A program made the position numbers and the translations under genes. Source: Pseudomonadota bacterium (GTDB lineage Bacteria > Desulfobacterota > Binatia > Bin18). From it: a DNA stretch of 36,086 bases. The first letter of the stretch is position 1. Each line of letters begins with the position of its first letter. Of this stretch, positions 30,745 to 34,731 are shown piece after piece. The stretch is taken from contig SYOC01000095.1 of NCBI GenBank assembly GCA_005804965.1, positions 1 to 36,086 on the forward strand. Direction: 5' to 3'. The notes below the pieces were generated by a model that saw only the letters and a list, made by a program, of their open reading frames with translations, did no database searches and was not told the origin of the DNA.

Positions 30745-32823
30745 CTACAAACTACTCACCGCTTCAGGAATGCGCGGTATCAAGACCTGATCGATCAACA
30801 GGTCAGCTTCTCCTTTGGCGTCAATCTTCACCTGTCCCGTCCAGCGGAACGATTGGATCACGCACACACCTTCATTCCCATCCCGACAATACACGAAACT
30901 TACCGTAGCCTGCACTTCCGCAGTGTCACCCTCGAATGTCAGCGGAATGTGGAGCGGAAACTTGCCGTCTTTCAGCATCGTGCGTTTGCCATGATGAGGA
31001 GCGCTGCCACGGATATCGACGCGATACTCAATGGGCGAGCCGGGATTTAGCTTGAAGGGAGCCGGGATTTGCACGTTCACCACAAGCTGTCCCTGTCGGG
31101 ATTTGAGCGAACGCGGGGCCAGTGGGATTTCTTCGAGATTTGGCCAGATGTCAGCCATAGCGGTGGTCACAACATCGGAAAGACCAGTAATGGGCAACGT
31201 CGAAACTTCCTTGGTGTGCAGGTCGGCCACGCGAATCGCATGATTGTTAGTGTCGGCAATGTAGAGCTTGCCGTCGGCGACGCTGACAGCACTGGGTTCG
31301 TAAAACTGTGGCGCCTGGCCGTCTCGGAAACCAGGCTGACCAGAGCCGAACATCGTGGTCGCTGTGCGCAACATCGGTCCGATAGCTTTGATTTTGTGAT
31401 TATAGGTATCGGCAACATACAGCACGCCGTTGTGATGCGTCACACCCAAAGGATGTTGCAGCCGCACCTGATCGCCTATGCCATCCACATCACCAAACTC
31501 GAAGAGCGCAAGGCCAACGATGGTGGACACGCGACCATGCGGATTGAGACTCACGGAGCGAATGGAGCTAATTTCCGAGTCGGCGATGTACAGGTTGGTT
31601 CCGTCGGAGGTGATGCCGCTCGGCTGAGCGAGCGCTGCCTCCATCAGCGGACCATCAATGCGGTCCTCTTGGCTCGATCCCGCGTAGGGGCCAACTTCTC
31701 CATGTTGCAGGTTCATCGCCCAGATTTGGTGTGGTCCCGCCATAGCGATGTAGAGAATGCCGTTTTCCACGACGAGATCCCAGGGCGAGGCCAAGGCAAC
31801 TGCACGCGCCGGTCCGCGTCGATACTGCCCGAGTGCTTGGACGCCGGTCCCGGCGATCGTCGTCACCGTGCGTGCTCGTAGGTCCAAGCAACGGAGCAAA
31901 TGGTTTTCGGTATCCGCGACATAGAGCACCTCACCATCGAGCGCCATACCTTGGGGGTGGTGGAACGTGGCCGTGGCGAACGAACCATCAGCCGCACCGA
32001 TCTCGCCACAGCCAGCAACGTCAAGGACACGTCCAGCCTTAGTCGTGACGAGAATGCGGTTGTGGTTGGAATCCGCGATAAACAGCCGGTCTGCCACTCG
32101 ATCCGCCAGGATCTTCCCCGGGAACGAAAGCACGGGCGTAGAAGACCGGGCTTTCTCTAAAGCGAAATGGAGCGGCTCTTCGTTGAGGCGGCCACGAGCG
32201 CGAAAATCAAGTACGAGTTGACTGATTACATGGTCGAGCTGGTCATAGTGGCCTTCGCCAGAAATACCTCCGAGGACATAGCCATCCGGGTCGATGAGGA
32301 CTAAGGTCGGCCACGAGCGCGGGCCATATTGCCGCCAGATGCGAAACTCATGGTCATTCACCACCGGATGTTCGATCTCGTAACGAAGAATCGCTTGGCG
32401 GATATTGTCGGAGTCCCGCTCGTTGGGAAACTTGGCGGAGTGTACGCCGATGACGACCAGTTGATTGGCGTACTTCGCTTCCAGCTTTTTCAGGTCCGGA
32501 ATCACCTGCATACAATTGATGCAGCAGTACGTCCAAAAATCGAGAAGAACGATTTTCCCCCGGAGACGTACCAACGAAATCGGCGCATCGGTATTCAGCC
32601 AACCAGCGCCACCTTCAAGTTCAGGGGCATGTATGCGTTCACGCGCCATGTCATCTCCTTTTGGGTTGCCCGTCAGCGGCTCTGCGGCAAGAGCCGTGAG
32701 AGCAAAAAGCTGAATAAACACAACCGCCAACACGAGACTGCTGCTGACCCAGCGCAGACCGGCACTCGCCCGGTTGTGCATCATCCGTTTCAGCTTCAAC
32801 GAGAGCTTCACTCGCGCCATCAT
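30745..32823 (-). CDS. Membrane-anchored thioredoxin-like/NHL-repeat protein (NHLRC2-like)
   Basis: ATG 32823 overlaps the hydrolase stop (ATGA) and gives 692 aa. A hydrophobic segment at 30-47 (LVLAVVFIQLFALTALAAE) is a signal peptide or anchor. Residues about 65-200 are thioredoxin-like with C100-C101-I-N-C104 (FWTYCCINCM), the motif of NHLRC2. Residues about 230-560 are NHL beta-propeller repeats (HPQGMALDGEVLYVADTENH and similar), followed by a beta-sandwich domain to the end. This order matches NHLRC2, a human protein of unclear function. A periplasmic redox or scaffold role is inferred. Confidence 0.85.
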   Translation of the reverse strand: MMARVKLSLKLKRMMHNRASAGLRWVSSSLVLAVVFIQLFALTALAAEPLTGNPKGDDMARERIHAPELEGGAGWLNTDAPISLVRLRGKIVLLDFWTYCCINCMQVIPDLKKLEAKYANQLVVIGVHSAKFPNERDSDNIRQAILRYEIEHPVVNDHEFRIWRQYGPRSWPTLVLIDPDGYVLGGISGEGHYDQLDHVISQLVLDFRARGRLNEEPLHFALEKARSSTPVLSFPGKILADRVADRLFIADSNHNRILVTTKAGRVLDVAGCGEIGAADGSFATATFHHPQGMALDGEVLYVADTENHLLRCLDLRARTVTTIAGTGVQALGQYRRGPARAVALASPWDLVVENGILYIAMAGPHQIWAMNLQHGEVGPYAGSSQEDRIDGPLMEAALAQPSGITSDGTNLYIADSEISSIRSVSLNPHGRVSTIVGLALFEFGDVDGIGDQVRLQHPLGVTHHNGVLYVADTYNHKIKAIGPMLRTATTMFGSGQPGFRDGQAPQFYEPSAVSVADGKLYIADTNNHAIRVADLHTKEVSTLPITGLSDVVTTAMADIWPNLEEIPLAPRSLKSRQGQLVVNVQIPAPFKLNPGSPIEYRVDIRGSAPHHGKRTMLKDGKFPLHIPLTFEGDTAEVQATVSFVYCRDGNEGVCVIQSFRWTGQVKIDAKGEADLLIDQVLIPRIPEAVSSL

Positions 32824-33626
32824 ACTGTGGCCGACGCCCGGCAAAAATCGACCCCAGCGAGAAAAGCCAGCGTGGTGCTGACAAACACGTCCGGCTTTTC
32901 CTGGGTCAGGGCATGACCACAGTCTGGAACCATCAGGAGGCGTGCGTGCGGAAGCACACGACTCATTTTGATTGATCCACCAGGAGGTGTCAGCGCATCC
33001 TCGCGCCCTTGGAGAATAAGCGTAGGGGCCTGCAAGCGGCGGAGATCCTCGGTCCAGTTGTAGTTGCCGATGGCACGCGCGGCCGCCGCATAGGCGTGCG
33101 GGTCGTTGCGTGCCGTGCGTTCCGTCATCTCTTGGAGCAGATCTGGGCGAGATTGCACAAACCCGGGAGAAAACGCTCGCTGGGCAGCGGCAGTGGAGAT
33201 AGAGAAGCCGCGTTCCTCAATGATCGTTGCGGTCTTTTCCCAGGCGGCGTGCGCCTGGGCACCAACTTCGCTTGAGGTACTCACGAGCACAAGTCCCTCA
33301 ACCAAATCAGGGAAATCGAGGGCGAAGCGCTGGGCAATCACTCCCCCCATAGAAATCCCCGCTACATGCGCACGAGTGAGGCCGCACGCACGGAACACAC
33401 CGGCAAGGTCGCGGGCAAACAATTGCGGGGAATACGGCCCCGCTGGTTTCTCCGACTGACCAAATCCGCGTGCATCCCAGCGGGTCACGCGATGATGACG
33501 CGCCAGCTCAGGCACGCAAGCATCCCAATCGTGGAGGGTGCCTCCTAAGCCATGCACGAGAAAAAGATCGGAGCCTTGCCCTTCTTGTGTGTAGTGCAAA
33601 CGCACTCCATCGACGATAGCATCCAT
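32820..33626 (-). CDS. Alpha/beta hydrolase
   Basis: ATG 33626 has GGGAGGA 4-6 nt upstream and gives 268 aa; a longer frame reaching 33671 lacks a site. The catalytic triad is S92 in GISMGG, D210 in GREDALTPP and H238 in CGHALTQ, with oxyanion-hole VHGLGG. It resembles haloperoxidase/3-oxoadipate enol-lactonase type hydrolases, but the substrate is not determined. The stop overlaps the start of the next gene as ATGA, so the two are coupled. It leads the six-gene minus-strand run. Confidence 0.88.
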   Translation of the reverse strand: MDAIVDGVRLHYTQEGQGSDLFLVHGLGGTLHDWDACVPELARHHRVTRWDARGFGQSEKPAGPYSPQLFARDLAGVFRACGLTRAHVAGISMGGVIAQRFALDFPDLVEGLVLVSTSSEVGAQAHAAWEKTATIIEERGFSISTAAAQRAFSPGFVQSRPDLLQEMTERTARNDPHAYAAAARAIGNYNWTEDLRRLQAPTLILQGREDALTPPGGSIKMSRVLPHARLLMVPDCGHALTQEKPDVFVSTTLAFLAGVDFCRASATV

Positions 33627-33777
33627 AGAGTCCTCCCTGTCTTTCATCGGAGCAACTATAAGCTTCGCCACCTCAGGATCAAAGCCCCGGCAGTATCGGA
33701 ATCGCCCCGAACCAAGGGGTTGCTTTCGGACGAACTAGCTAATAGTCTTGGGAAAATTTTTCGTCCTGGGGGGAGCG

Positions 33778-34680
33778 GTGAACGCCTCGGTCAAGCTGAT
33801 TGAACAGGTGGTTCCGTCAACAGTAGGAATCCATGCCCTCGTGCCGCCACATCATGCTTCGGCAATGGTACTCGGCACGGAGCGAATGGGGTCGGGTGTC
33901 GTGGTTGACCCGGCTGGATATATCCTCACCGTCAACTACATCGTCATCGGTGCCAGCAAAGTGCAAGTTGGCATGTTAGACAACAATCAATATGAAGCCG
34001 AAGTGGTGGCACAGGATTTTGTGAGCGGCATCGCTGTGCTCAAGGTCTCGCCGAACGGCTTCCCAGCAGTCCCGCTGCGTTCGAGTGTTGACCTTGAGCC
34101 GGGGACGGAAGTTTTCATGGTCGCCAGTAGCGACGATGCCGCTGGCCGACGCGTCGGCGGAGGGTTTCTCTCGTCGCTCGGTGCCTATGAAGCCTATTGG
34201 GAGTACCGTCTGGATCGTGCGTTGATGTGCTCAGCCATGAATCCCGGCCTCGGCGGTGGCCCGATGTTCGATATGCAGGGACGCATGATCGGTGTGGTGT
34301 CGCTGAATCTCGCTGAGGTGGCCAAGTTCTCGCTAGCGATTCCCGTCGAGCACTATCTTGAGCATCGAGACGAACTCGTGCGCTATGGCCGCCGCGTCAG
34401 TCGCCCGTCTCGTTCGTGGATTGGCATGTATTCCTATCCTCTGCGCGATCATATGGTGTTAGCCGGAGTCTTGCCGAAAGGCCCAGGCGACAAAGCTGGA
34501 TTGAAAGCCGGCGATGTATTGTTGGCTATTGACGGCCAAGAAGTCACCGACCGCAACTCGCTCTATACCTATCTCTGGAGCAAACCGGCAGGAGAGACCT
34601 TGTTGTTTCGCGTCTTTCGCAATAACGGCTTTCGGGAGATTGCTGTTCTTTCCGGCAATATCGAAGAATTTTTCGGCTAG
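33778..34680 (+). CDS. Catalytically dead HtrA/S1C pseudoprotease with PDZ domain
   Basis: GTG 33778 is preceded by GGGGGGAGC; an upstream TTG (33748) adds only ten residues. The 300-aa product has an HtrA-like trypsin fold then a PDZ domain (about 205-290, VLPKGPGDKAGLKAGDVLLAIDGQEV split). All three catalytic residues are lost: His is Y54 in TVNYIV (canonical TNNHVV), Asp is G84 in SGIAVLKV (canonical TDIAVLKI), and Ser is G159 in NPGLGGGP (canonical NPGNSGGP). There is no signal peptide or anchor, so it acts in the cytoplasm. Conservation of the fold and PDZ without catalysis suggests a binding or scaffold role. Confidence 0.82.
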   Translation: MNASVKLIEQVVPSTVGIHALVPPHHASAMVLGTERMGSGVVVDPAGYILTVNYIVIGASKVQVGMLDNNQYEAEVVAQDFVSGIAVLKVSPNGFPAVPLRSSVDLEPGTEVFMVASSDDAAGRRVGGGFLSSLGAYEAYWEYRLDRALMCSAMNPGLGGGPMFDMQGRMIGVVSLNLAEVAKFSLAIPVEHYLEHRDELVRYGRRVSRPSRSWIGMYSYPLRDHMVLAGVLPKGPGDKAGLKAGDVLLAIDGQEVTDRNSLYTYLWSKPAGETLLFRVFRNNGFREIAVLSGNIEEFFG

Positions 34681-34731
34681 CATGCGGCACGTCGATGTTG
34701 CCGCTCAATGCGCAATCAAGGAGGCATAAGA

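Follow-up and report, generated by a model that had tools for sequence, protein, structure and literature searches.

A leaderless HtrA-type pseudoprotease without the catalytic triad is a core gene of Candidatus Binatia

The HtrA/DegP/DegQ/DegS (Do) proteases, in which a trypsin-like domain is followed by a PDZ domain, are the closest described relatives of the protein considered here. HhoA of Synechocystis, deposited as a protease (5b6l, 5t69), is an active, exported enzyme of this type. As described in excerpts of a published study (PMC11642142), loop L3 of DegS (residues 176-189) contacts Glu317, Met319 and Asp320 of the PDZ domain and carries the ligand signal, and the activation cluster of DegP is formed by Thr176, Ser183, Arg187 and Gln200. 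HtrA-type pseudoproteases are also already known: the available part of another report (PMC4794232) presents MamO and the inactive copies of MamE from magnetotactic bacteria as proteins that lost catalysis in three independent events and were kept for another role, with MamO combining a TauE-type domain with a di-His motif that binds metal. The protein described here shares the two-domain arrangement of the Do family and matches it along the whole chain (structural Z scores of 26-28), but differs from it in lacking the catalytic triad and the export leader and in having changed activation-cluster residues. It resembles MamO and MamE as an HtrA-type protein maintained after loss of catalysis; however, it lacks the TauE-type domain and the di-His motif, is leaderless and, unlike MamO and MamE, which belong to one gene island, is a core gene of a class. 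This clade fits neither the definition of an HtrA protease nor that of MamO, and no description of it was found in the literature on HtrA pseudoproteases, Binatota, Rokubacteria and Azospirillum, as covered by titles and abstract openings.

The gene lies in contig SYOC01000095.1 (assembly GCA_005804965.1), within a stretch of 36,086 nucleotides that was analysed as a whole and is called here the window. Its features are as follows.

33778..34680, + strand: coding sequence of the leaderless HtrA-type pseudoprotease, with a GTG start, 300 amino acids plus stop
33778..34392, + strand: trypsin-like (pseudoprotease) domain, approximately residues 1-205
33853..33855, + strand: His26, present in 137/137 class genes and invariant in the leaderless clade only
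33871..33885, + strand: LGxxR signature, residues 32-36, invariant in the inactive clades and in the members with His/Gly/Ser at the catalytic sites, absent in active HtrAs
33937..33939, + strand: Tyr54, in the place of the catalytic His (His105 of DegP), Tyr in 137/137 class genes
34027..34029, + strand: Gly84, in the place of the catalytic Asp (Asp135 of DegP), with Gly in 118, Ser in 13 and Asn in 6 class genes (n=137)
34198..34206, + strand: WE[YF] signature within regulatory loop L3 (residues 141-143), with WEY in 94 and WEF in 43 class genes (n=137)
34252..34254, + strand: Gly159, in the place of the catalytic Ser (Ser210 of DegP), with Gly in 103, Ser in 20, Asn in 10, Thr in 2, Ala in 1 and Pro in 1 class genes (n=137)
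34438..34647, + strand: PDZ domain, residues 221-290 (Pfam PDZ_2, E 8e-11)
34564..34578, + strand: Y263...W267 face of the PDZ helix, from a comparison of residues across groups

The initial annotation, made from the letters alone, had described this frame as an HtrA-PDZ homologue with a preserved PDZ domain and all three catalytic residues replaced. Coordinates, strand and GTG start were confirmed, and the PDZ domain proved to be present, with a PDZ_2 score of 42.5 bits against a Pfam gathering score of 27. Together with the match to Trypsin_2 (residues 38-173, E 1.1e-19), the predicted model and the structural matches, this gives the architecture of a trypsin-like domain with a C-terminal PDZ domain that is typical of the HtrA (S1C) family. 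The curated Do-family model yielded 120.5 bits, below its cut-off of 416.2, and the protein also remained under the cut-off of each of the curated DegP, DegS and HhoA models. The fold, previously supposed to be intact, was checked by structure prediction, and the single-chain AlphaFold model reached a mean pLDDT of 94.2 and a pTM of 0.91. The best Foldseek matches to this model were DegQ, DegP and DegS (E about 1e-24), and VIA-align matched it to DegQ, DegS, DegP and HhoA over the whole chain. The alignment with DegQ 3pv2 had a Z score of 27.8 over 268 residues with an rmsd of 9.3, that with HhoA 5b6l, among the best fits spanning both domains, 26.3 over 258 residues with an rmsd of 4.1, and that with the HtrA1 protease domain 3tjo, which covers residues 1-203, 26.3 over 180 residues with an rmsd of 2.2. 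For some pairs the rmsd is large, perhaps because the PDZ domain is placed differently.

The replacement of the triad was borne out by alignment with mature E. coli DegP, Tyr54, Gly84 and Gly159 standing where an HtrA (S1C) protease has His, Asp and Ser; L001, L002 and L003, which are active HtrAs encoded in the same genome, retain all three residues. Among the 137 orthologues from Candidatus Binatia the His site is never His and the Asp site never Asp, and an intact triad was found in none. These counts take one gene per matching genome, leaving out a second copy in G015, and were built on profile and protein searches, not on peptide patterns; a separate scan of named genomes used patterns that included TVNY and WEY, so its 80 loci are not evidence for either Tyr or WEY. 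Two further trypsin-like matches in the own genome (L005 and L006) did not match the profile. Conservation of Tyr/Gly/Gly among homologues, which had been set out as a check, was upheld with one refinement: Tyr is universal and the full pattern is held by the majority (100/137), but Ser is retained in 20/137, all in one lineage. Because it is conserved across the whole class, the pattern is far beyond chance. As a separate observation, in a lineage of family f9 (many of L055-L060 and L194-L225) WEF replaces WEY, a short insert precedes the Ser site, many members have Ser, Asn, Thr or Pro at that site, the Asp site is often Ser or Asn, and the His site is always Tyr.

The retained Ser, and the fact that Tyr54, Asp80, Glu142 and His26 are each invariant in 137/137 class genes, might suggest that the protein is still an enzyme, either through a new hydrolytic site formed by residues such as these or through a working Ser in some members. 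We regard this as improbable, since the members that bear Ser have Tyr in place of His, Asp80 is just as invariant in active HtrAs and is thus probably structural, and Glu142 falls in loop L3 by alignment. Absence of all three catalytic residues could also be the mark of a decaying pseudogene or of a sequencing artefact, a reading that the conservation of the gene refutes and to which we attach practically no weight: no internal stops occurred in the matches of any class genome carrying the gene, length and start are conserved, and dN/dS against the sister species G001, whose protein is 93% identical, was 0.048 (0.054 for the protease part and 0.033 for the PDZ part). The corresponding dS was approximately 0.8, more distant pairs being saturated and not used, and two active HtrAs of the same genome pair gave dN/dS values of 0.042 and 0.096. 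The gene was present in 137/148 genomes of Candidatus Binatia, the class to which the window belongs (matches at E 1e-80 or better), and in 93/95 of those of good quality (completeness of 90% or higher, contamination of 5% or lower), while a full-length orthologue (E < 1e-55) was found in 55/58 related genomes, the own genome included, and not in G004, G007 and G017. Close homologues keeping the triad beside a copy under relaxed selection, the outcome that the initial annotation had named as contrary to its proposal, were not encountered, given that 0/137 have His or Asp at the respective sites and dN/dS is as low as stated. The loss of the triad is fixed, ancient and under purifying selection, and therefore supports the selected non-proteolytic role that had been proposed. 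With HtrA ancestry in the tree, catalytic residues lost in the triad counts and maintenance under selection in dN/dS, the protein has the attributes of an HtrA-type pseudoprotease.

The protein starts at the first helix of the fold, in agreement with the earlier claim that it has no export signal. The start codon lies at most two codons from model position 1 in all 137 class orthologues, an upstream hydrophobic stretch being possible in one of them. A TTG exists in the window at 33748, ten codons upstream of the GTG; the copy of the sister species (L008, 93% identical) offers no start codon ahead of the GTG that aligns with it. The same start was found in 35/35 other leaderless members, mostly Rokubacteria/Methylomirabilota by record title, again with one possible hydrophobic stretch. 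In the sister clade a leader-like stretch was detected in 42/43 proteins, the exception (L300) being cut by the contig end, and the four alphaproteobacterial members showed none by the cut-off, L308 coming close (1.77 vs 1.8). The leader test was a crude hydrophobicity scan, which found a leader in only 7/18 active HtrAs, a canonical set without L003, and the leaders of the remaining ones may fall outside the scanned stretch. A cytosolic location, also put forward at the outset, is strongly indicated by the leaderless start conserved in 137/137 genes, and the envelope or secreted location of Gram-negative HtrAs is not predicted on the same grounds.

A tree of 63 proteins, rooted with active HtrAs and omitting L003, which formed a long branch in another tree, separated all WEY proteins from the active HtrAs by one branch (100/100). 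The first branch inside the WEY side (100/93) unites two exported proteins, L158 (from G091) and L287 (from G534), that retain His and Ser and have Gly at the Asp site; the rest consists of the leaderless clade (100/98) and a sister clade (99/93) made up of exported proteins with Tyr/Gly/Gly or Tyr/Gly/Ala and leaderless alphaproteobacterial members. Because L158 and L287 keep His and Ser without Asp, the simplest reading by parsimony on this tree is that Asp would have been lost first, then His and Ser, with the leader lost at least twice. The exported members with His/Gly/Ser appear to be likely intermediates in a path from protease to binding protein, in which an HtrA lineage would have given up proteolysis and export and then become a core gene of a bacterial class.

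The distribution of the gene was surveyed in several samples. Among 395 genomes sampled from the phylum, scores of about 397 bits or more were obtained for each of the 16 class members; outside the class this tier was reached only by G091, and a lower tier of about 193-222 bits comprised 13 other genomes. In the phylum of the Rokubacteria genome G528, 74/95 genomes matched at E 1e-55, about 60 of them with the leaderless type (at least 339 bits) and many with a second gene at 209-280 bits. Among 22 second-tier loci of this phylum (L276, L277 and L282-L301), 21 have Tyr/Gly followed by Gly or Ala, and L287 is the lone exception with His/Gly/Ser. A group titled Tectomicrobia/Nitrospinota had matches in 2/5 genomes. 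Plasmid records of Azospirillum brasilense Sp7 (L307), Neorhizobium galegae (L308), N. petrolearium (L310) and Rhizobium sp. 007 (L311) encode Tyr/Gly/Gly together with WEY, and these members bring the question within ordinary genetics. The N. petrolearium protein WP_227705700.1 belongs to the same inactive clade, with Tyr/Gly/Gly, WEY and no leader, but it falls in the sister clade, is approximately 30% identical to the window protein and is annotated as 'S1C family serine protease'. The public record thus annotates at least one member as a protease, and similar genes may be miscounted in the same way. Two records deserve separate mention: the copy on p1 of Azospirillum brasilense MTCC4038 (L309) appears interrupted, with a frame of 239 residues and a match in two pieces, the Sp7 copy being whole, and a record titled Klebsiella pneumoniae MAG (L081, CAMBFS010000001.1) corresponds in length and match position to contig C1 of G009, a member of the window's family in Candidatus Binatia, and is probably mislabelled.

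The residues that set this lineage apart are found in both domains. Leu32, Gly33, Arg36, Trp141, Glu142, Tyr143 (Phe in some) and Tyr263 are common to all WEY groups, including the members with His/Gly/Ser, and are absent or rare in 19 active HtrAs. Tyr263 occurs in 97% of the class and in 100% of the other inactive groups, active HtrAs being different at this position, and Trp267 is likewise held by the WEY groups, except in part of the class (70%); neither the sister clade nor the active HtrAs conserve His26. The WEY motif aligns to DegP residues 191-193 in loop L3. The signatures in L3 and the PDZ helix predate the loss of His and Ser, and we infer a contact between these two elements. In the alignment the window protein has Arg125 at the position of DegP Thr176 and Met150 at that of Gln200, with no Arg at that of Arg187, and because these positions read otherwise, the relay from the PDZ domain to the active site is dismantled as well. 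Given this loss of relay residues, the domains may no longer signal to each other.

Our preferred explanation, which we hold to be moderately probable, is that the protein is a cytosolic, non-proteolytic binding protein descended from an exported HtrA. Its PDZ domain would recognise the C-termini or internal peptides of cytosolic partners, the dead trypsin-like domain would serve as a body, probably trimeric, that holds or presents them, and WE[YF] in L3 together with Tyr263 of the PDZ helix would create an interdomain contact, either fixed or responsive to ligand, that replaces the relay by which the protease is normally activated. In favour of a binding role, the signature residues lie in L3 and the PDZ helix, through which the ligand signal passes in DegS and DegP, as far as the excerpted account goes (PMC11642142). 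Ligand binding, a trimeric state and this function are what we infer for the window protein, and the more specific role of a PDZ scaffold, suggested in the initial annotation, is a putative one as well. The carboxylate loop of the PDZ domain is not unusual enough for a ligand to be predicted. It is also possible, if doubtful, that the protein is a catalysis-free cytosolic HtrA sensor that reports or gates the state of a partner, in which binding of a C-terminus would move the remodelled L3 against Tyr263 and Trp267 of the PDZ helix and alter the shape of the trimer. Should this be true, Binatia and Rokubacteria would possess a core regulator whose relatives in Azospirillum and Rhizobium, which can be cultivated, are prone to annotation as proteases.

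A metal-binding scaffold, which would hold a transition metal by a pair of surface His residues, has a precedent in MamO, an HtrA-type pseudoprotease according to the available part of PMC4794232, and could find further ground in the invariant His26 that marks the leaderless clade. It seems a poor candidate, as 55 class genes share a single invariant His, so that a conserved di-His pair is not present, and the MamO family model gave 27 bits against a cut-off of 800.

The gene neighbourhood was considered as a clue to function and rejected, as the 113 loci compared support no pathway; no neighbour gene is universal among them, which fits a stand-alone core function. HtrAs can act as chaperones without cleavage, and a stand-alone gene with no fixed neighbour, near-universal in its class and retaining both fold and PDZ domain, would also suit a trimeric pseudoprotease that holds unfolded cytosolic proteins, its PDZ domain only recruiting exposed hydrophobic ends. 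We consider such a chaperone rather unlikely, since signatures as specific as WE[YF] and Tyr263 suit a defined partner, as in the binding protein that we favour, better than a general holdase. A defence role was likewise rejected, as neither the protein nor its two neighbours matched any PADLOC family at E 0.001.

Several neighbours are specific to particular lineages, namely pabB/pabC, a TPP decarboxylase with npdG, pyruvate phosphate dikinase, and a dienelactone hydrolase with a B-type DNA polymerase. Some clusters consisted of antisense frames from high-GC genomes (cluster 3, no family); these are probably spurious and were disregarded. A divergent pabB adjoins the gene in 25/113 loci, a TPP-dependent decarboxylase is encoded close by and on the same strand in 21/113 (in 19 of these at a centre-to-centre distance within 1.6 kb), and 11/113 have npdG in the vicinity. 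The sister species and other relatives carry a gene for a TPP-dependent decarboxylase of the indolepyruvate/phenylpyruvate type immediately downstream of the pseudoprotease gene; in the window this gene is missing from the corresponding place (34680-34723), and npdG (F420 reductase) comes next. On the other side, a pcaD-like alpha/beta hydrolase gene (32820-33671, - strand) is divergent to it, and in the Neorhizobium petrolearium relative pcaD is found nearby with pcaQ (L310, 6731-6879). The recurrence of neighbours of the pcaD/dienelactone-hydrolase type is possibly due to chance. Many Rokubacteria copies lie about 15 bases or less after a dienelactone-hydrolase-like gene.
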